In this document: positions 26,634 to 42,872 of the stretch, piece by piece
Numbering within the stretch: position 1 is the stretch's first letter
Layout: every line of letters starts with the position of its first letter
DNA from: Spartobacteria bacterium LR76
Lineage (GTDB): Bacteria > Verrucomicrobiota > Verrucomicrobiia > Chthoniobacterales > Terrimicrobiaceae
DNA: 64,000 bases
Reading direction: 5' to 3'
NCBI GenBank assembly: GCA_003054655.1
Contig: QAYZ01000014.1
Location: 124,001 to 188,000 of the forward strand
Translations under genes and position numbers: made by a program
The notes under the pieces: model-generated
Database searches by the model: none
What the model was told of the DNA's origin: nothing
Seen by the model: the letters and a program-made list of their open reading frames with translations, nothing else

Positions 26634-26975
26634 TCAGGCGTTGCGCAGGGCGCGCACCTCGGCGACGGCTTTTTCAAAGCTCACCGTCGCATCACCCAGC
26701 AGGGCGGTGGCATCGGCGAGCGAGCCGGCTTTCGCACCTTGCTCCAGGGTGGCCGCAGCACGGCTCACGCCGACGAAGCCAAAGTTTGCCGCGCTCCCCT
26801 TGATCTGGTGGGCGACCTTGGCGGCAGCCGCGGCGTCTCCTGCCAGCACTTTGCTCCGGAGTTGCGAGAGCAGGGTTGGCATTTCCGAGACGAACTCCCG
26901 GTAGATCTCAACAAAGTCGGGGGTGAAGCCGTCGGCGATCATGTCGAGTTGTTCCCAATCGATCAGCACAGACAT
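26634..26975 (-). CDS. Stand-alone histidine phosphotransfer (HPt) protein
   Basis: 113 residues, one four-helix HPt domain. The phosphorylatable histidine is H56 in AHQIKGSAANFG. It would relay phosphate between a hybrid kinase receiver and a final response regulator. No kinase is adjacent. The hybrid kinase at the end of the Wsp-like operon in this window needs such a relay partner, but the link is only inference. An in-frame upstream start gives a non-HPt leader and is not used. Confidence 0.85.
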   Translation of the reverse strand: MSVLIDWEQLDMIADGFTPDFVEIYREFVSEMPTLLSQLRSKVLAGDAAAAAKVAHQIKGSAANFGFVGVSRAAATLEQGAKAGSLADATALLGDATVSFEKAVAEVRALRNA

Positions 26976-27045
26976 CGTGCGGCGACTATGCAATGGGATG
27001 TGTCCCGGCTCAAGGAGATTCACTAAGCCGTTGCGGCGGCCTTTT

Positions 27046-33595: not shown

Positions 33596-35326
33596 ATGCG
33601 TTGGACTATCAACCGCCAGATCGCTGCGGGTTATGCGATTTCCCTCCTCTTCGTCATCGCTCTGGGCGGTACGGCGTATTGGGCCTCTCATCAGATGCTC
33701 GATGCCTTCAGCCAGCGCCGGAATGCGACCCTGATCATTCTCGCTTCCGATCAGGTGCTGACCCTGATCCAGGATGCGGAAAGCGGGCAGCGCGGCTATT
33801 TGCTCACGGGGGCCGAGCCTTACCTGGAGCCCTACCGTTCGGCGGCTTCCCGCCTTCCTTCCGCCGTCGATAACCTGAAGCTTTTGCTGGGAAAATCGGC
33901 CCTGGGACAGGATGGCGTGGCTGACTTGCAGACAGCGGTGAATGACAGGCTCGCCGAGCTGGCGCATACGATCGATCTGAAACGTGCGGCGCAAGGTGCC
34001 GCGGCCCTGGATGTTGTGAACCAGGGAGCGGGCCGGGAGGCGATGGATCGCATCCGCCAGAGGCTGGATGTCATCAAGCAGGCTCAAGTCAGCGAGCAGG
34101 ATACCCGCAATAAAGAGGCGCAAAGCGCCTCGGCCTTCCTGCTTGATGTGCTCGCCATCGGCATCCCGCTTTCCGTCGTCGTGATGATCCTCTCGGGCAT
34201 GGTTACGTCGCGCCGCATCCTCAAGCCGGTCGAGGAAATCACCGCGGCGGCGCGCGCGGTCTCGGAGGGAGACCTCGCCGTGCAGCTTCCCGAGAAATCC
34301 AAGCTCGAGGAGATCCATGCGCTCACGCGGTCCTTTGAGGGCATGGTGGCTTCCCTGCGCCAATCGGCCAGCTTGAGCGAGCGCCTTGCCTCCGGCGACC
34401 TGACGGTCGAGATCAAGCCGCTCTCCGGCAAGGATGTCGTCGGCAAGTCGCAGGCCGACATGGTAACGAAGCTTTCCGACCTGATCGAGCAGGTGCAGCG
34501 CTCCGGCGTGCAGGTGAACTCCTCCGCCGTGCAGATCGCCGCCACGTCGAAGGAGCAGCAAAGCACGGCCAGCGAGATGGCCTCCACGACCACGGAGATC
34601 AGCGCGACCTCCAAGGAGATCAGCGTGACGGCGGCGGAACTTTTGAAGGCGGCGGACACCATGAACGAAGCCTGCCAGCGCCTCGCAGGCCTGGCCGTCG
34701 ATGGAAAGGAAGGCCTGCTGCGCATGGAGCAGGTCATGCGCCAGATCATCGACGCCTCGGCGGCAATCACCGCGCGCTTTGGGGAGATGAATGATCGCGC
34801 CGGGACGATCAGCTCCGTCGTCACCACCATCACCAAGGTGGCCGATCAGACGAATCTCCTGTCGCTCAATGCCGCCATCGAGGCCGAGAAGGCGGGCGAA
34901 TACGGCAGGGGCTTTTCCGTGGTGGCGGCCGAGATTCGCCGCCTGGCCGACCAGACCGCCGCCTCCACGCTCGACATCGAGCAGATGGTGAAGGAAATGC
35001 TCGCCTCGGTCTCGGCCGGGGTGATGGGCATGGACAAGTTTTCCGAAGAGGTGCGCCGCAACGCCCACGAGGTGACCGATGTCACCCGCCAGATCGACGG
35101 CATGATCGAGCAGGTCCAGTTGCTCGCTCCCAGCGTCGAGTCGGTCTACGAGGGCATGCGCACCCAGACCCAGGGTTCCGCCCAGATCAGCGAGGCGCTC
35201 GTCCAGCTCGGCGACGCAGCCCGGCAGACGGCGGATGCCATCCGGGATTCCAACCGGGCTGTCGAGCAGCTCAACGAGGCGACGGGGGGACTCCAGAAGG
35301 CCGTCTCCCGGTTCAAACTGAGGTAA
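33596..35326 (+). CDS. wspA: WspA-like methyl-accepting chemotaxis protein with CHASE3-like sensor
   Basis: 576 residues. Helix 1 (about 8-28) leads to a periplasmic CHASE3-like helical region ([13 protein letters not shown] near 60-73), a second helix (about 183-203), HAMP, then the signalling coiled coil. The hairpin tip reads [20 protein letters not shown] followed by [20 protein letters not shown], which I recall as nearly identical to Pseudomonas WspA, together with [17 protein letters not shown]. In Wsp systems it senses surface contact. It is the first gene of a seven-gene operon plus YajQ, one base before the CheW gene. Confidence 0.92.
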
Positions 35327-35327
35327 T

Positions 35328-35783
35328 ATGCTCTATGTCGTTTGCCGTATCGGGGACGACGCCTACGCCTTGCCGGCAGGTGCGGTCGACAAGGTGCTGC
35401 CCTTTGCCGCCCTCAAGCCTCTGCCTGGCGCGGTGCGGGGACTCGCCGGCGTGCTGAACTACCAGGGGCAGTCTGTTCCCGTGGTCGATCTCGGGCTGCT
35501 TTTTCAGGGAGTTCCCACCCCGGAGGCCTTTGGCTCCCGCATCATCCTGTGCCAGGCACCGGGGCTTCGTTCCGGGCGGCTGGGAATCCTGGTTGAATGC
35601 GTCGATGGTGTATCGGCTGTTCCGGAGGAGTCCTTCACTCCTCCCGGCGCGTCGGCCGATCCGTGCCTGGGGGATGTTGCGCCTGCAGCGGGTTCGTTCA
35701 TCCAGCGCATCGAGCTGCCTTCGGTATTGCCTGATGATGTGCTGGAAAGCCTCGGCTGGAGCGAGGCAGGGGAGGCGGCGTGA
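35328..35783 (+). CDS. wspB: CheW-like coupling protein (WspB position)
   Basis: 151 residues of one CheW/SH3-like domain. It has DDAYALPAGAVDKVLPFAAL, GVLNYQGQSVPVVDLG and GILVECVDGV. It bridges the receptor and the CheA-type kinase. It begins 1 base after the MCP stop and overlaps cheR by 4 bases, with the GTG start of cheR inside its end. Confidence 0.9.
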   Translation: MLYVVCRIGDDAYALPAGAVDKVLPFAALKPLPGAVRGLAGVLNYQGQSVPVVDLGLLFQGVPTPEAFGSRIILCQAPGLRSGRLGILVECVDGVSAVPEESFTPPGASADPCLGDVAPAAGSFIQRIELPSVLPDDVLESLGWSEAGEAA

Positions 35784-36958
35784 ATGTGATCGACCAGATC
35801 GCCGGGTATGTGAACGAGCATGCCGGGTTTGAAACATCCGGAGCGGGCCGTCAGCAGTTGATCAAGGCCATTGAGCGCCGGAAGGATCGGGAGAGTTCGC
35901 TGGAGGAGTACCTCGGGAAGCTGAGATCGTCCCCGGCGGAACTGCGCTGCCTCCTGGAGGATTTTGTGGTGCCGGAGACGTTTTTCTTTCGTTACGAGGA
36001 ATCGTTTCGCACCCTGGCGCAGTGGGCGGGCCAGCGGAAGAAGCGCCCGCTGCGCATCCTGAGCGCGGCCTGCTCGACGGGAGAGGAGCCGTACTCCATC
36101 GCATTTTCCCTCCTCGAGGCGGGCTGGAAGCCGAGGGATTTCCAGGTCGAGGCCTTCGACCTGAGCGACGCGGCGATTCAGACGGCCCGCGAGGGCGTGT
36201 TTCGGCCCAACTCCTTCCGCGGAGAGATCGGCTCCTGGCGGGAACGTTTCTTTGAGCCTGCGGGAGAGGGGTGGAGGGTGCGGAGTCAATACCTCGGCCT
36301 GATCGATTTTCGCCGCTCGAATCTCCTGCTCATGGAGGACGTGGCCTGCTGGGATGCGATCTTTTGCCGCAATGTGATGATTTACTTTGATGATCCCAGC
36401 CGGCAGCGCGTCTCCGATCTGCTCCATCGCGCCCTGAAGCCGGACGGCATGCTCTTTCTCGGCCCTGCGGAGCCTGCTGCGATGTCGGCCTACGGGTGGC
36501 GGACGACCGGGCTGGAGATGAGCTTCACGGTGCAGGCATCGGTCGACCCGGCGATGACGCCATCGATGATCAAGCCCAAGCCGATCGTGCTCGCCCCCCG
36601 CCGCCGCGCCATCGGCTACTCGGTCCCGCGCTTCACGTGTGATGCGTTGCCGCCTGAGATGACGGTGGAGGATGCGCGGAAGCTGGCCGACCAGGGGCGG
36701 GTCAGCGAGGCGCGCGAGATGCTTCGCCGGGTGCTGGCGGCGAGGACGGACGATGCCGGCGGCAGGTTTCTCCTCGGGCTGATCGAGGAATCCCTGGGAA
36801 ATCTCGCCGAGGCCGAGGTCCAGTACCGACAGGCGCTTTACCTGGAGCCGGCGCACCAGGAGGCAATGCATCACATGGCCCTCCTCCTGCGCCAGCAGGG
36901 CCGCACCGACGCCGCCGGACGATTCGAGCGGCGCGTCTCCCGGGGGACCGCCTCATGA
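35780..36958 (+). CDS. wspC: CheR-type methyltransferase with TPR tail (WspC-like)
   Basis: 392 residues. The CheR N-domain leads to VPETFFFR (64-71), the SAM site SAACSTGEEPYSIAF (95-109) and FCRNVMIYFDD. About 100 C-terminal residues form TPR helices (SEAREMLRRVL, GNLAEAEVQYRQALYLEP). This CheR-TPR layout is that of WspC. It methylates glutamates on the MCP to set its activity. The start is a GTG at 35780 overlapping the CheW stop. Confidence 0.92.
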   Translation: MNVIDQIAGYVNEHAGFETSGAGRQQLIKAIERRKDRESSLEEYLGKLRSSPAELRCLLEDFVVPETFFFRYEESFRTLAQWAGQRKKRPLRILSAACSTGEEPYSIAFSLLEAGWKPRDFQVEAFDLSDAAIQTAREGVFRPNSFRGEIGSWRERFFEPAGEGWRVRSQYLGLIDFRRSNLLLMEDVACWDAIFCRNVMIYFDDPSRQRVSDLLHRALKPDGMLFLGPAEPAAMSAYGWRTTGLEMSFTVQASVDPAMTPSMIKPKPIVLAPRRRAIGYSVPRFTCDALPPEMTVEDARKLADQGRVSEAREMLRRVLAARTDDAGGRFLLGLIEESLGNLAEAEVQYRQALYLEPAHQEAMHHMALLLRQQGRTDAAGRFERRVSRGTAS

Positions 36959-37500
36959 GCCGGACCCATCCCCACCGGCCGCTGCCTGCGGATCTCCGCG
37001 CGGAATGGGCTGCCGACATCGCCCGGCCTCCGGAGATCGCGGCAGGTCGCGAGGGAAGGCAGCGGCTCCTGGTCGCCCGGGTGGGAGGCGACTGGCTCGG
37101 ATTTCCCCCGGCCCTGGTCTCGGCGACCTTGCCGGCAGGGGCGGTCCGCCGCATCCCTCACCGCGTGTCGGGGACTATCGAGGGTCTTTTCAACGCCGAT
37201 GGGCGCATCGTCGCATGTGTGAACCTGGAGCGTCTCCTCAAGACCTCTCCCGCTGGCTCCGAGGATGGGGCCGCCGCGAGGATGCTGATCCTGCAATGGC
37301 GGCACACGCAGGCCGCCGTGCGGGTGCGTTCCGCGCTCGGACTGGAGGAAATTGACTTGTCCGCTCTCCAAAAGCTGCGCGACGACGCCAGCGCTCCGCT
37401 GGCTGGAGTGAGCCGCGGTGTCGTGATGCATGCCTCCCGGCCTGTGGTGTGCCTGGATGGAGAGCGTCTGGTTGCAAGCCTGCAGGAGGCCATCGAATGA
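36955..37500 (+). CDS. wspD: Second CheW-like coupling protein (WspD position)
   Basis: 181 residues. A variable N-terminus with LPADLRAEWAADIA leads to a CheW fold (RLLVARVGGDWLGFPPALVS, GLFNADGRIVACVNLERLL). The extended N-terminus and place between CheR and CheA match WspD. It overlaps both neighbours by 4 bases (ATGA). Confidence 0.88.
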   Translation: MSRTHPHRPLPADLRAEWAADIARPPEIAAGREGRQRLLVARVGGDWLGFPPALVSATLPAGAVRRIPHRVSGTIEGLFNADGRIVACVNLERLLKTSPAGSEDGAAARMLILQWRHTQAAVRVRSALGLEEIDLSALQKLRDDASAPLAGVSRGVVMHASRPVVCLDGERLVASLQEAIE

Positions 37501-39671
37501 AGGGCGACGACCTGAGCGCGTATTCCATGGACGAGTTGTTTCGCGCCGAGGCGGAGCAGCAGTGCGCGATCCTCTCGGACCATCTTCTCCGGTTGGAAAA
37601 GGCCAGCGACGCGGCCCCGCTTCTGGAGATCCTGATGCGTGCGGCACATTCGCTCAAGGGGGCGGCGCGCATCGTGGGCAATGATGGAGCTGTGCGGGTG
37701 GCGCATGCGATGGAGGGCCTTTTCGTCAAGGGGCAGAAGGCAAATGCCGCTCCCGACGCACGGGCGATCGATGTCCTACTGCGCGGCGTCGATCTGCTGC
37801 GGGACTTGAGCATCGCTCCCGACCGGGCCGACGGGCCGGGCCGCATGGAGCGTTTTCTCGGGGAGTGTGCGGAATCCGGGCCGTCGCCGATCCTGCCTGC
37901 CCCGTCGCCGGAGCCGGTTCCCGCCGTTTCTGCGCCGGAGCCTGAGCATGCCAAAAAGGACGTGCGGCTCGATGCGGAGCGCCTCGACAATCTGCTCGCG
38001 CTCGCCGGGCAGGCCGTCGTGTCGGCGACGGAGACCGGCACGGGAGTAGCGGGTCTGCGCGCCGCGCTGCGCTCGCTCCAGACGGTCCTGGGCGGGCTGA
38101 ACAGCTCCGATCTCACGCCGAGACAGCGGCAGTTGCTGCGGCAGGCCGGGGCATTGACTTCATCCTGCCAGTCGCTCGCGGCTGAGGAGAGCGAGCGCCG
38201 CGACCTGCACGACCGCCGCCTGCTGCAACTCTGCGACCGCATTTACCGCGAGACGCTCTCCTGCCGCATGCGCCCCTTTGGCGACGTCGCCGGGGCGCTG
38301 CGCCGTCTCGTGCGCGACCTCGCCCGCGATCTGGGCAAGGAGGTTGATCTCGTCATCCAGGGCGAAGATACCGAGGTGGATCGCGACATGATCGACCGCT
38401 TTGAGGGCGCGCTGTCCCATTTGATCCGCAATGCCCTGGATCACGGACTGGAGACTCCCGCCGAGCGTCTTGCGACCGGGAAGGCCCCGTCGGGAAGGCT
38501 GGAGGTCTCCGCCCATCATCATGCGGGCTGGCTCAGTGTTTCCGTGGCCGATGATGGCCGGGGCATGAAGGCCGAGACCATCCGGCAGGCGGTCATTCAG
38601 CGCGGCTTTTCCGCCGAGGAGCATGCACGCCAGATGAGCGACCAGGAGCTTTCCGCGTTTCTGCTGCTGCCCGGTTTCTCCCTCAGCGAGCGGGTCACGG
38701 AGATCTCCGGTCGGGGCGTCGGCCTCGACGCCGTGCGCTCGATGGCCTATGAGGCCGGGGGATCGATCCGCCTGGGGCCGAGCGCACAGGGGGGATTCCT
38801 CTGCGAGATCACCCTGCCCGTCGCGCTTTCCCTCCTGCGTGCCGTGGTGGTCGAGGTGGAGGGCGAGCGGTATGCGTTTCCGCTGGCGAGGATCGAGCGT
38901 GTCGTGGAGGTCACCCGCTCCGACGTGCATCTCATCGGCGGCATCGCGCATATTTTCCTCGATGGGGAAAAGGTGGAGATTTTCAGTGCAGCCCAGATCC
39001 TGGAGCTGGGGGCGGGAGACGTCTCCGGCGACGCGCTCAGCCTCGTGATCATCCCCTCCGGGCAGGGCCGCATCGGCCTGGCGGTCGATCGTCTGCTCGG
39101 GATGAGAGAGCTTTCCCTGCAGCGTCTGGACGGCCGGCTGGGCCGCACGCAGGATGTCAGCTCGGCCGCCTTGCTGGAGGACGGCGAAGTCGTCATCGTC
39201 CTCGACATCAACGACCTTTCCGTCAGTGCCGCGAATTTCTCCTCCGCCTCCCGGCAGCGCGCGCTTTTCCCCGAGCACGATGCCAGCCCGTGCTGCCGCA
39301 TCCTGGTCGCGGATGACTCGCTCACCGTGCGCGAACTCGAGCGCAAGCTCCTGGCCGGCCAGGGCTACGAGGTCGACACCGCCGTGGATGGGGCGGATGC
39401 CTGGAATGCCCTCCGGAGCGGGAAATACGATCTGCTGGTGACAGACATCGACATGCCGCGCCTCGACGGCATCGAGCTGGTGAAGCTCGTCCGCGGCAGC
39501 GCCCAGCTCCGCGACCTGCCCGTCATCGTCATGTCTTACAAGGAGCGGGATGAGGACCGCGCCCGGGGTCTCGAAGCCGGGGCGGACTACTATCTGACAA
39601 AATCCAGTTATCAGGACGAGTCGATCCTGGGAGCGGTGCGCGAGTTGCTCGGGCAGCCGTCGGCGGCGTGA
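37497..39671 (+). CDS. wspE: CheA-type histidine kinase fused to a receiver (WspE-like)
   Basis: 724 residues. The HPt domain has H51 in AAHSLKGAARIVG. A dimerisation domain spans about 155-260. The ATPase domain has N312 in HLIRNALDHG and DDGRGM near 352. A CheW-like domain follows (about 445-585), then a receiver with D650 in LLVTDIDMPRLDG. A single receiver at the C-terminus is the WspE pattern. It passes phosphate to CheB and to the next response regulator. The ATG at 37497 overlaps the second CheW stop; an upstream frame opening is not used. Confidence 0.95.
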   Translation: MKGDDLSAYSMDELFRAEAEQQCAILSDHLLRLEKASDAAPLLEILMRAAHSLKGAARIVGNDGAVRVAHAMEGLFVKGQKANAAPDARAIDVLLRGVDLLRDLSIAPDRADGPGRMERFLGECAESGPSPILPAPSPEPVPAVSAPEPEHAKKDVRLDAERLDNLLALAGQAVVSATETGTGVAGLRAALRSLQTVLGGLNSSDLTPRQRQLLRQAGALTSSCQSLAAEESERRDLHDRRLLQLCDRIYRETLSCRMRPFGDVAGALRRLVRDLARDLGKEVDLVIQGEDTEVDRDMIDRFEGALSHLIRNALDHGLETPAERLATGKAPSGRLEVSAHHHAGWLSVSVADDGRGMKAETIRQAVIQRGFSAEEHARQMSDQELSAFLLLPGFSLSERVTEISGRGVGLDAVRSMAYEAGGSIRLGPSAQGGFLCEITLPVALSLLRAVVVEVEGERYAFPLARIERVVEVTRSDVHLIGGIAHIFLDGEKVEIFSAAQILELGAGDVSGDALSLVIIPSGQGRIGLAVDRLLGMRELSLQRLDGRLGRTQDVSSAALLEDGEVVIVLDINDLSVSAANFSSASRQRALFPEHDASPCCRILVADDSLTVRELERKLLAGQGYEVDTAVDGADAWNALRSGKYDLLVTDIDMPRLDGIELVKLVRGSAQLRDLPVIVMSYKERDEDRARGLEAGADYYLTKSSYQDESILGAVRELLGQPSAA

Positions 39672-40672
39672 TGAGAGTCGCCATCGTCAATGATTCGCCC
39701 ACAGCGATTGCGCTGTTGAGAGAGGTCATCACCGCCGAGGAGGGCTTTTCCGAGGCCTGGGCGGCGGTCGACGGAGCCGAGGCCGTGCAGAAATGCCGGG
39801 ACGATCTGCCGGACATCATTCTCATGGACCTGGTCATGCCGGTGCTCGGCGGAGTCGAGGCCATACGACAGATCATGAGGGAGACGCCATGTCCGATCCT
39901 GGTCGTCACGGGGACGGTCGAGGGGAATGTCTCTGCTGTCTTTGAAGCCATGGGGGCGGGTGCCGTCGATGCGGTTGCCACTCCCGCCTTTGGCTCTTCG
40001 GATGGGAGGCGCTCCCTCGTGGAGAAAATCCGCGCGGTCGTTTCCATCGCGGCTCCCTCATCCATTGAGCGCCGGGGCCGCCCGGCGAGGCGCAACGAGA
40101 AGGGGGCCGACGCCTGTGTGCTTATTGGAGCCTCCGCGGGAGGGCCGGCCGCCCTCATGACCATCCTCCAGCAGCTTCCCGCCACGTTGCGGGCCGCGGT
40201 GGTCATCGTGCAGCATATCGACGTGAGGTTTGATTGCGAACTCGCCTCCTGGCTCGACGCCAGATCCCAACTGCCTGTGCGCCTGGCCGAGGACGGCGAA
40301 GAGCCCGCCCAGGGCGAAGTGGTGATAGCCAAGGGAGGGTGTCACCTCACCTTCAACCATCGACGGCTTCGCTACACCAGTGTGCCCGACATTTCCTATC
40401 AGCCTTCCGTCGATGTGTTGTTCGAGAGCGCCATCGCCCATGGGCCGGCCCGCCTCATGGGCGTCATCCTCACGGGCATGGGGCGCGATGGAGCGCGGGG
40501 GCTCATGTGCCTGCGCACATCGGGCCATCTGACCGTCGCCCAGGATGAGGCGACCGCCGCCATCTATGGAATGCCCCGCGCCGCCGCCGAGAGCGGGGCG
40601 GCCAGGGAAATCCTGCCCCTTGATCGTATCGCCAGCCGCATTGAAGCCTGGAGCAACTTGCCAATCCCATGA
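39671..40672 (+). CDS. wspF: CheB-type receiver-methylesterase (WspF-like)
   Basis: 333 residues. Receiver D53 lies in [13 protein letters not shown]. The methylesterase triad is S155 (IGASAGGPA), H182 (VQHID) and D273 (GMGRDGARG). It removes methyl groups from the MCP and so damps output; wspF loss locks the Pseudomonas system on. The start [10 protein letters not shown] resembles WspF's MRIGIVNDMP as I recall it. ATG 39671 shares a base with the CheA stop. Confidence 0.93.
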
Positions 40673-42375
40673 ACGAACTCATCAACCCCAGTCGCGCAAT
40701 GGTCCTGCTAGTGGACGACCAGGCTCTGGTCGGAGAATCGCTGCGCCGCGCCCTCGCCATCGAGGACGACATCGACTTTCACTTCTGTGCGGACGCTGCA
40801 TCCGCCCTCGATCAGGCGCGCAAGATCCGCCCGACCGTCATCCTGCAGGATCTCGTGATGCCGGGCGTGAGCGGACTCGATCTCGTGCGTCTCTATCGCG
40901 CCGATCCCGCCCTCCGCCAGGTGCCGGTCATCGTTCTCTCCGTGCGCGAGGAACCTGAGACGAAGCGCGATGCCTTTGCCGCCGGGGCCAATGACTATCT
41001 GGTAAAGCTCCCCGATCGCCTGGAACTGCTGGCCCGCGTGCGCTATCACTCCGCCGCGTATCTCGCCCAGCTCGATCGTGACGAGGCCATGCACGCCCTG
41101 CGCGAGAGCCAGCGCGAGCTGCTGGATTCCAACACGGCCCTCATCTCGCTCAACCAGAAGCTCGAGGTCGCCACACGTGCGAAGTCCGAGTTTCTCGCCA
41201 TGATGAGCCACGAAATCCGCACTCCGCTCAACGGGGTGCTCGGATTTTCCGACCTGCTGGCCGAAACCTCGCTGGACGACGAGCAAAAGGGCTTTGTCGA
41301 GACGATCCGCTCGAGCGGTCGCTCGCTCCTCACCGTGATCAACGACGTGCTCGACTTTTCCAAGATCGAGGCGGGCAAGCTGACCATCGAGAACATGGGC
41401 TTCAACATCGGCCAGTGCATTCGCGAGGCGAGCGAGCTTTTCGTTCCCAAGGCGAGGGACCACGGCACGGCGCTCACGTGGGAGATCTCGCCGGCGATTC
41501 CCGCGACTGCGGTGGGAGACTCCATGCGCCTGAGGCAGGTGATTTCAAACCTCGTGTCGAATGCGGTGAAATTCACCCGCTCGGGCCATATTCTGATCAT
41601 GGCCTCGCTCGGCGATCCTCGAGAGATCACCAAGGCCACCGACCGGTTTTTTGCGGCCCCGGGGGATGACGCGTTCTTCCTCCGGGTGAGCGTATCCGAC
41701 AGCGGCATCGGCATCCCGCCGGAGAAGCAGCCGTTGCTCTTCAAGAGCTTTGATCAACTCGACCCCTCGACCGCGCGCAAGTTCGGTGGCAGCGGTCTCG
41801 GGCTGACCATCTGCCGGCGGCTCTGCCAGCTCATGGGGGGGGACATCTGGGTCAACCCGGAGCGCGCCCCGGGTGCGGAGTTCATTTTCATGGTCAAGCT
41901 CGGTGTGGGCGGAGAGCTGCCGCAAAGGCCGGGAGGCAAGGTCACGGTATCCTGTACGCCGGGAGTGGATGAGATCCTGGCGGGATCGCGCGTTCTCGTG
42001 GCGGAGGACAACAAGGTCAACGCCACGCTCATCGCCGCGCTGCTGCGCAAGTTTGGCATCGACGCGCGGAGCGTTTCCAACGGCGTCATGGCCTATGAGG
42101 CCGTCACCGAAACCGATGTCGACCTCGTTTTCATGGATATCCAGATGCCCGTGCTCGATGGCCTCGAGGCGACCGCCCGCATTCGCGAGAGCGAAAGGGA
42201 AAACAAGCGCAAACCCTGCTACATCATCGCGCTGACAGCCGAGGCTCTCCAGGGCGACGCTGAAAAGTGCATCCAGGCAGGGATGAATGATTACCTCGCC
42301 AAACCCATCCGTACCACGGACCTCGCGGCCGCGTTGGCGAAATATTGCAGCGCGCGCTCCCCGATGGCATCCTGA
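40669..42375 (+). CDS. WspR-like receiver fused to histidine kinase and second receiver, in place of a diguanylate cyclase
   Basis: 568 residues. The first receiver (about 10-130, D61 in [12 protein letters not shown]) with [22 protein letters not shown] and the linker [19 protein letters not shown] follows the WspR receiver and linker closely, as I recall the Pseudomonas protein. Where WspR has GGDEF, this protein has HisKA (H181 in [12 protein letters not shown]), HATPase ([17 protein letters not shown]) and a second receiver (D490 in [13 protein letters not shown]). The output should be phosphorelay and not c-di-GMP synthesis. It has no membrane helix. It overlaps cheB by 4 bases and ends 5 bases before yajQ. 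Confidence 0.92.
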
Positions 42376-42380
42376 CTCTC

Positions 42381-42872
42381 ATGCCCTCATTTGACGTAGT
42401 TTCCGAAGTTGACCGCATGGAGGTCAAAAACGCGGTCGACCAATCGCTGCGCGAGCTTGCCTCGCGGTTCGATTTCAAAGGCCTCACCACCACGATCGAG
42501 ATCGACGCCAAGACCGGCTCGATCCTGCTCACCGTCGATGACGGAGCCCAGATGAAGGCGCTCCGCGAGATCGTGATCGGCAAGCTGGCCAAGCGCAATA
42601 TCGACCTGCGCAACATCGAGCAGAAGGACCCCGATATCTCGCCCCTCGGCCATTCCCGGCAGGAGCTCGCGATCAAGCAGGGTCTCGATGGCGACAAGGC
42701 CAAGGAGATCAACAAGGCGATCAAGGCGCTCAATCTCAAGGTGCAGGCCTCGCTGCAGGATCGCCAGATCCGTGTCACAGGCGGCAAGCGCGACGACCTG
42801 CAAAAGGTCATCGCCGCCCTGCGTGCGGGCGACTATGGCGTCGCCCTCGCGTTCAAGAACTTCCGCGACTGA
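42381..42872 (+). CDS. yajQ: YajQ family nucleotide-binding protein
   Basis: 163 residues. It begins MPSFDVVSEVDRMEVKNAVDQ (in part) and has RFDFKG, then RNIEQKDPDIS, the KVQASLQDRQIRVTG region and an ending VALAFKNFRD. YajQ proteins of Pseudomonas and Xanthomonas have been reported to bind c-di-GMP and act with transcription factors. A nucleotide-binding role here is inference. It lies 5 bases after the Wsp-like hybrid kinase, so it may be part of that operon. Its stop abuts the pyrF stop. Confidence 0.9.
   Translation: MPSFDVVSEVDRMEVKNAVDQSLRELASRFDFKGLTTTIEIDAKTGSILLTVDDGAQMKALREIVIGKLAKRNIDLRNIEQKDPDISPLGHSRQELAIKQGLDGDKAKEINKAIKALNLKVQASLQDRQIRVTGGKRDDLQKVIAALRAGDYGVALAFKNFRD

Follow-up and report, generated by a model that had tools for sequence, protein, structure and literature searches.

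A WspR-type receiver joined to a hybrid histidine kinase at the end of a Wsp-type operon in Spartobacteria bacterium LR76, and the other outputs carried by the same receiver and stalk

The Wsp system is the textbook surface-sensing route to c-di-GMP. In Burkholderia cenocepacia, a receiver-kinase (WspHRR or WspH) stands in place of the cyclase WspR (PMC4324302 and PMC8552884), and c-di-GMP was reported to be unchanged in wsp mutants (PMC8552884). The latter paper also surveys the system, giving Wsp as exclusive to beta- and gammaproteobacteria, WspH as restricted to Burkholderia, no outputs other than WspR and WspH, and no organism as having both R- and H-systems. Wsp genes were already listed by annotation in a paper on Planctomycetes (PMC6461901), and CheR-TPR clusters have been described with receivers fused to kinases, GGDEF domains, phosphatases, and more (PMC3447774). 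The kinase CheS3 of Rhodospirillum centenum receives phosphate from CheA3 on its REC1, a modification proposed to reduce phosphorylation of the kinase (PMC3868531). A kinase in the place of the cyclase, the main idea of a sequence-only reading of the locus described here, has a precedent in print in Burkholderia WspHRR/WspH (PMC4324302 and PMC8552884). The accessible portions of the open-access papers that we consulted held no description of a Verrucomicrobiota or SpoIIE form.

We analyzed a window of 64,000 nucleotides from Spartobacteria bacterium LR76 (contig QAYZ01000014.1, positions 124,001 to 188,000), in which an open reading frame on the plus strand at 40669-42375 encodes a protein of 568 residues with the order REC-HisKA-HATPase-REC. 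This gene is the seventh and last of a same-strand run, and the six genes before it (33596-40672) are of wspA-F type: a chemoreceptor of 576 residues with CHASE3, HAMP, and MCP signaling domains (wspA-like; 33596-35326), a CheW protein (wspB-like; 35328-35783), a CheR methyltransferase with TPR repeats (wspC-like; 35780-36958), a second CheW protein (wspD-like; 36955-37500), a CheA-REC kinase with Hpt, HATPase, CheW, and REC domains (wspE-like; 37497-39671), and a CheB methylesterase (wspF-like; 39668-40672). The A-F gene set in this order is that of Wsp, of the ACF chemosensory class. Overlaps of 4 bases occur at the B-C, C-D, D-E, E-F, and F-R junctions. A promoter scan found none (1.0 expected), and 7 terminator-like sites were observed versus 4.9 expected. 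The whole receiver-kinase gene is kept in two same-genus genomes at 93.8% and 88.8% identity, with silent-to-replacing codon differences of 179:35 and 177:57. The gene is real and conserved, and it belongs to a known class as an output variant of Wsp. Five bases downstream begins a gene (42381-42872, plus strand) that we take to be of the YajQ family, whose members bind c-di-GMP. A functional link to this gene was dropped, since no other examined locus has one within 6 kb after the R gene.

Pfam assigned two Response_reg stretches, HisKA at residues 171-236, and HATPase_c at residues 283-411 (41515-41901) to the 568-residue protein, in agreement with the sequence-only reading that HisKA-HATPase-REC follows directly after the receiver linker. 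The first receiver, REC1, is of the WspR type and covers about residues 10-126 (40696-41046) with D61 as the predicted phosphorylated aspartate (codon 40849-40851), and REC2 covers residues 442-556 (41992-42336) with D490 in the same predicted role (codon 42136-42138). D61, K113, H181 in the first DHp helix (codon 41209-41211), D490, and the N and G boxes are all present. With a HisKA H-box, N and G boxes, and a C-terminal receiver bearing its aspartate, the protein is a HisKA-class hybrid histidine kinase by domain make-up, and autophosphorylation and phosphorelay are predicted for it. A predicted single helix over residues 117-198 (41017-41262) would unite REC alpha5, a WspR-type stalk, and the first DHp helix, with K113 and H181 spaced by 68 residues; in the AlphaFold2 model, a monomer built from 15 sequences with a pTM of 0.45, this helix has a mean pLDDT of 81.6.

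Residues 8-158, stalk included, matched the WspR PDB chains 3i5a (E 1.1e-58) and 3bre (E 3.9e-58), with the next best PDB chain at E 1.3e-14, and the receiver and stalk are 63% identical to 3bre (alignment A1). The sequence-only reading had likened the receiver and linker to those of WspR, and the match to both chains bears this out as far as residue 158. The protein therefore has the receiver and stalk of WspR, and HisKA-HATPase-REC is found where WspR has its C-terminal GGDEF diguanylate cyclase. In a receiver tree that took 16 of the 55 distinct GGDEF receivers plus L163, a Burkholderia REC-GGDEF protein, the window's receiver grouped with WspR, and the 64 WspR-type receivers stood apart from 9 generic ones with SH-aLRT support of 100. 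REC1 is also the only receiver of its kind in its genome, which is 96% complete: a search with REC1 gave one match at E 2.4e-98 and the next at 2e-13. PF00990 (E up to 0.001) gave one match, in a 628-residue frame on another contig that reads by eye as receiver-GGDEF-EAL and whose receiver is absent from the 14 REC1 matches at E up to 1e-8. A separate WspR-GGDEF protein hidden elsewhere in the genome, which would have counted against the sequence-only reading, was not found by these PF00990 and receiver searches and was rejected.

The receiver is found with several outputs in related genomes. At a threshold of E at most 1e-25, it was present in 30 of 387 genomes sampled from the phylum, where the frames read held a SpoIIE-type phosphatase (22 genomes), a kinase (7 genomes, one of which, L029/L038, has another kinase kind), or a lone receiver (1 genome), and in none GGDEF. 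Pfam detected PF07228 in all 22 SpoIIE members scanned and no PF00990 at the receiver places of the 30 genomes. GGDEF is rare throughout these 30, with any match in 18, none in 12, and at most three per genome. The SpoIIE genome G370 carries, in addition, another WspR-type receiver, whose tail differs and looks PAS-like. Among 197 genomes sampled from the order, 15 had the receiver, joined to a kinase-like half in 12 (one ending with its contig, one without the HisKA His motif, and one of the L038 kind), to a short Cys-rich tail alone in 2, to neither in 1, and to GGDEF in none. The Cys-rich tail, which in most reads GLLPIC..CKKIR...FSHSLCPDC, follows a WspR-type receiver and stalk at same-order loci L204, L206, L207, L208, L210, L209, L211, and L214. 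The L210 form adjoins a receiver-kinase, a pairing present in five genomes, and two Cys-rich-tail proteins scanned against Pfam gave nothing over the cut-off outside the receiver.

Among the best 80 loci of a larger number in a named collection, 63 were GGDEF types, all labelled proteobacterial, and 17 were kinase types, labelled as Verrucomicrobiota (16) and Acidobacteria (1). E, F, or both lie upstream in all 17 named kinase-type loci, and all of A-F in 7; the other 10 miss at least one gene at the thresholds used, some by contig end. Wsp receiver-kinase clusters are present at L067 and L112, which are labelled as an Akkermansia muciniphila MAG and are possibly mislabelled. Five of the 22 SpoIIE loci (L034, L035, L037, L039, and L059) have directly downstream, on the same strand, a gene for an ATPase called RsbW-like from its motifs and not from a Pfam scan. 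Two further SpoIIE loci have such a gene no more than about 1.5 kb away on the opposite strand, and neighbor-gene clustering showed none in the other 15. The RsbW-like gene suggests partner switching as the output of the loci that have it. At L034, L035, L039, and L059, no wspA-F cluster adjoins in the stretch examined.

We measured how far the phosphorylated histidine lies from the conserved lysine of the KLPD motif and obtained 68 residues in 21 of 22 kinase-type proteins, one of them the window protein, in a set from which identical receiver stretches were dropped and in which L115 and L127 were not measurable by script. The spacing is also 68 in L115, L203, L206, L208, and L212, and the other values are 61 (L038 and L205) and 33 (Burkholderia WspH, L167). 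As 33, 61, and 68 all equal 5 modulo 7, they fit heptad-locked coupling, a pattern noticed after the fact and resting on three kinase kinds. The GGDEF types have a fixed spacing of 52 in 54 of 54, and in the SpoIIE types 88, 94, or 95 residues lead to the catalytic motif. The spacings of the kinase, GGDEF, and SpoIIE types would fit a register-locked rod.

For the direction in which outputs were exchanged, our trees somewhat favor kinase first. The receiver-only tree was dropped as an arbiter, since 42 of its 70 inner branches are open and outputs are unsorted inside the WspR type; of the descent claimed by the sequence-only reading, kinship of the receiver to WspR stood, and for nesting inside the GGDEF WspRs this tree gave no resolution. 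Within it, the sister of the window's receiver is the kinase type L048 (support 86). A rooted core tree was built from WspC, WspE, and WspF (46 rows, without L091, L100, L048, and L095, and with 8 of 22 SpoIIE types and 13 GGDEF types) with outgroups from E. coli, Niveispirillum, Azospirillum, and Sinorhizobium. In this tree, made by a quick method and having long outgroup branches, 42 Wsp-type clusters were separated from the 4 outgroups with support of 100, placing the core proteins with Pseudomonas Wsp. The SpoIIE types formed one group (100), the 13 GGDEF types formed another with WspH and the kinase types L043 and L115 (97), and the remaining kinase types were spread around both. In AU tests, the kinase types as one clade were rejected (p 0.00067), and GGDEF plus WspH as one clade was not rejected (p 0.184). 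All non-GGDEF types as one clade were rejected (p 0.0035), driven by L043 and L115, and the same clade minus these two was not rejected (p 0.11), both groups having been chosen after the tree was seen. Because kinase clusters surround the GGDEF group in the rooted tree, the kinase output may be the older one, and this placement, together with rejection of a kinase clade, leaves the earlier claim that GGDEF had been replaced unsupported.

The kinase half itself lies among ordinary hybrid kinases, as the sequence-only reading had expected. The first kinase tree had long branches and was redone with 32 generic hybrid kinases from six genomes of the phylum, without L038, L091, and WspH. The 21 Wsp-type halves were compatible with one clade among these 32 (p 0.73), which favors one old fusion over repeated swaps, and it is only the constrained tree that joins them, the free tree placing the window's group apart from most other Wsp halves. 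Taken together, the trees lean toward one old receiver-kinase fusion from which the GGDEF and SpoIIE types would be derived. A broader proposal, to which we give serious but tentative weight, somewhat short of even, is that the receiver and stalk of Wsp act as a universal adaptor and first served a hybrid-kinase phosphorelay, whereas the Pseudomonas cyclase and the SpoIIE phosphatase of other Verrucomicrobiota, with an RsbW-like partner gene at some loci, came later through exchanges that left the stalk in the same helical register.

The opposite direction, in which an ancestral WspR lost GGDEF and gained a kinase in the window's lineage, is possible and on the whole unlikely. The best-studied receiver of exactly the REC1 kind is that of the cyclase WspR, which would speak for a cyclase ancestor. 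So would the row nearest to the window by path in the receiver tree, a GGDEF type (L127), which also ties with the kinase row L063 as nearest in a first core tree, a quick tree of 54 rows, each from a locus that supplied two or all three of the core proteins. The non-GGDEF clade that was not rejected once L043 and L115 were removed is consistent with this direction as well, and cyclase first has been published for Burkholderia WspH (PMC8552884), with which our core trees agree in placing WspH among the GGDEF types. Against it stand the rejected kinase clade and the rejected clade of all non-GGDEF types, the latter a post hoc group, and the compatibility of the 21 kinase halves with a single origin. 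Kinase first therefore remains the direction that we favor somewhat.

Considering that REC1 is of WspR type and that its gene lies directly 3' of wspF in the seven-gene run, we propose the following flow. A receptor complex of WspA, WspB, and WspD would control WspE, with WspC and WspF providing adaptation, and WspE would phosphorylate D61 of REC1. REC1 would then set the activity of its own kinase through the unbroken stalk helix into the dimerization helix, and phosphate would pass from H181 to D490 of REC2, from REC2 to an Hpt, and from the Hpt to a response regulator. The window protein has no Hpt, and the genome has two Hpt matches (E up to 0.001), one within WspE and the other in a stand-alone protein of 129 residues encoded in the window at 26634-27023 on the minus strand; for these reasons the flow from REC2 is drawn to the latter, which probably takes phosphate from REC2 and probably from other hybrid kinases too. 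By this proposed flow from WspE through REC1, the kinase, and REC2 to Hpt, the output of the Wsp-type operon would be a phosphorelay and not c-di-GMP, a scheme that we consider on balance probable and that builds on gene order, domains, receiver kinship, intact catalytic residues, fixed spacing, and conservation as read from the sequence. Any surface-sensing role would likewise be presumed. A2, a group of 15 that includes the window protein, has six members with a fused C-terminal Hpt, and one locus (L062) has exactly the order REC-HK-REC-Hpt.

Several observations count against the scheme. The kinase half matches 22 places in its own genome, itself included, so that a stand-alone Hpt would serve many kinases, and relatives without a fused Hpt give no sign of which Hpt is used. 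In addition, a same-order genome (G313) has a WspR-type REC-HK-REC protein (L048) as an apparent orphan output with no wsp genes in the surrounding 16 kb, which suggests that such a protein can be maintained in the absence of WspE. At L062, E and F were the only wsp genes detected within 9 kb upstream. The single Hpt match of the G313 genome lies in a 219-residue frame.

The proposed lowering of CheS3 phosphorylation by phosphorylated REC1 means that the sign of the REC1 effect may go either way here. REC1 might mainly be an off-switch through which WspE silences a kinase that is otherwise on, following the model put forward for CheA3 and CheS3, although we think this rather improbable: the experimental precedent in R. 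centenum (PMC3868531) and the G313 orphan, which keeps its kinase with no WspE found, argue for it, and the different make-up of CheS3, with two RECs, a PAS domain, and an HWE kinase (PMC3868531), argues against it. The off-switch is also at odds with WspR itself, where phosphorylation of the receiver homologous to REC1 activates the output. More doubtful still is direct phosphorylation of a DNA-binding response regulator by the kinase, as proposed for WspH and Bcen2424_1436 (RowR), with REC2 serving as brake or sink in a route that bypasses Hpt. Suppressor genetics ties wspHRR to Bcen2424_1436 (PMC4324302 and PMC8552884), and L038 has no second receiver (L107 also lacks one, but its contig stops at the frame end, so it counts for neither side); the complete REC2 of the window protein and the fused Hpt in A2 members point instead to the proposed relay. 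Finally, that an ordinary hybrid kinase happens to adjoin the operon and resembles WspR by chance, in a genome rich in hybrid kinases, is hardly credible and was rejected, being already contradicted by the strength of the match (E 1e-58 to WspR versus 1e-14 for the next PDB chain), and also by the 4-base overlap with wspF, the receiver clade support of 100, and the presence of E, F, or both upstream at every one of the 17 named kinase-type loci.

These findings concern more than a single protein, and their interest is in the range of outputs that one receiver-stalk carries, as well as in the direction of exchange. Complete Verrucomicrobiota Wsp clusters with kinase or SpoIIE outputs mean that one receptor array is wired to at least three chemistries. 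They also open to testing the order in which the outputs arose and the way in which one receiver can switch cyclase, kinase, and phosphatase via the same helix.

Compared with Pseudomonas WspR (3bre and 3i5a), the window protein is alike in its receiver and stalk, its place 3' of wspF, and the upstream gene order, and it differs in having HisKA-HATPase-REC for GGDEF, so no c-di-GMP synthesis is expected. The ACF multidomain response regulators resemble it as products of CheR-TPR clusters, with receivers on histidine kinases in around 40% and on GGDEF, phosphatases, and others; as far as its accessible portions go, that survey classed domains without showing one receiver-stalk module under different outputs (PMC3447774). 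CheS3 is alike in that a CheA-REC phosphorylates the N-terminal receiver of a hybrid kinase and a receptor array controls a second kinase, and it is set apart, by the paper's description, by its two RECs, PAS domain, HWE kinase domain, and route ending in CheY3 (PMC3868531). CheS3 is the best functional precedent for a CheA phosphorylating the receiver of a second kinase.

Burkholderia WspH, for which we took L167 (NZ_CP091013.1) by its make-up and place, also has a WspR-type receiver on a histidine kinase, an adjoining wspA-F cluster (L170), and no cyclase. In contrast to the window protein, the one WspH examined has 377 residues, a single receiver, no Pfam HisKA call, and a short-stalk joining with 33 residues from receiver to His, whereas the window protein has two receivers and the full WspR stalk with 68. 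The WspH gene lies 5' of its operon (PMC8552884 and L170) and the window gene 3' of wspF. Since these differences come with core genes that sit inside the GGDEF group of the rooted tree, WspH looks like the product of a separate joining event, which we regard as most likely. The same Burkholderia cenocepacia sequence, NZ_CP091013.1, holds both WspH and a WspR-type REC-GGDEF protein (L163) whose neighbor is a cheB broken across two frames; as the 11 kb upstream showed no further wsp gene, L163 is not a full R-system. GGDEF-type Wsp clusters are also present in alphaproteobacteria (L171, L173, L174, and L096, from Novosphingobium, Mesorhizobium and Hyphomicrobiales plasmids, and Bosea). The Verrucomicrobiota loci and the alphaproteobacterial plasmid GGDEF clusters go beyond the range stated in PMC8552884. 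A kinase in the cyclase's place was thus known before from Burkholderia WspH, and what the window protein adds to it are the full stalk, a classical HisKA, REC2, and the 3' position.
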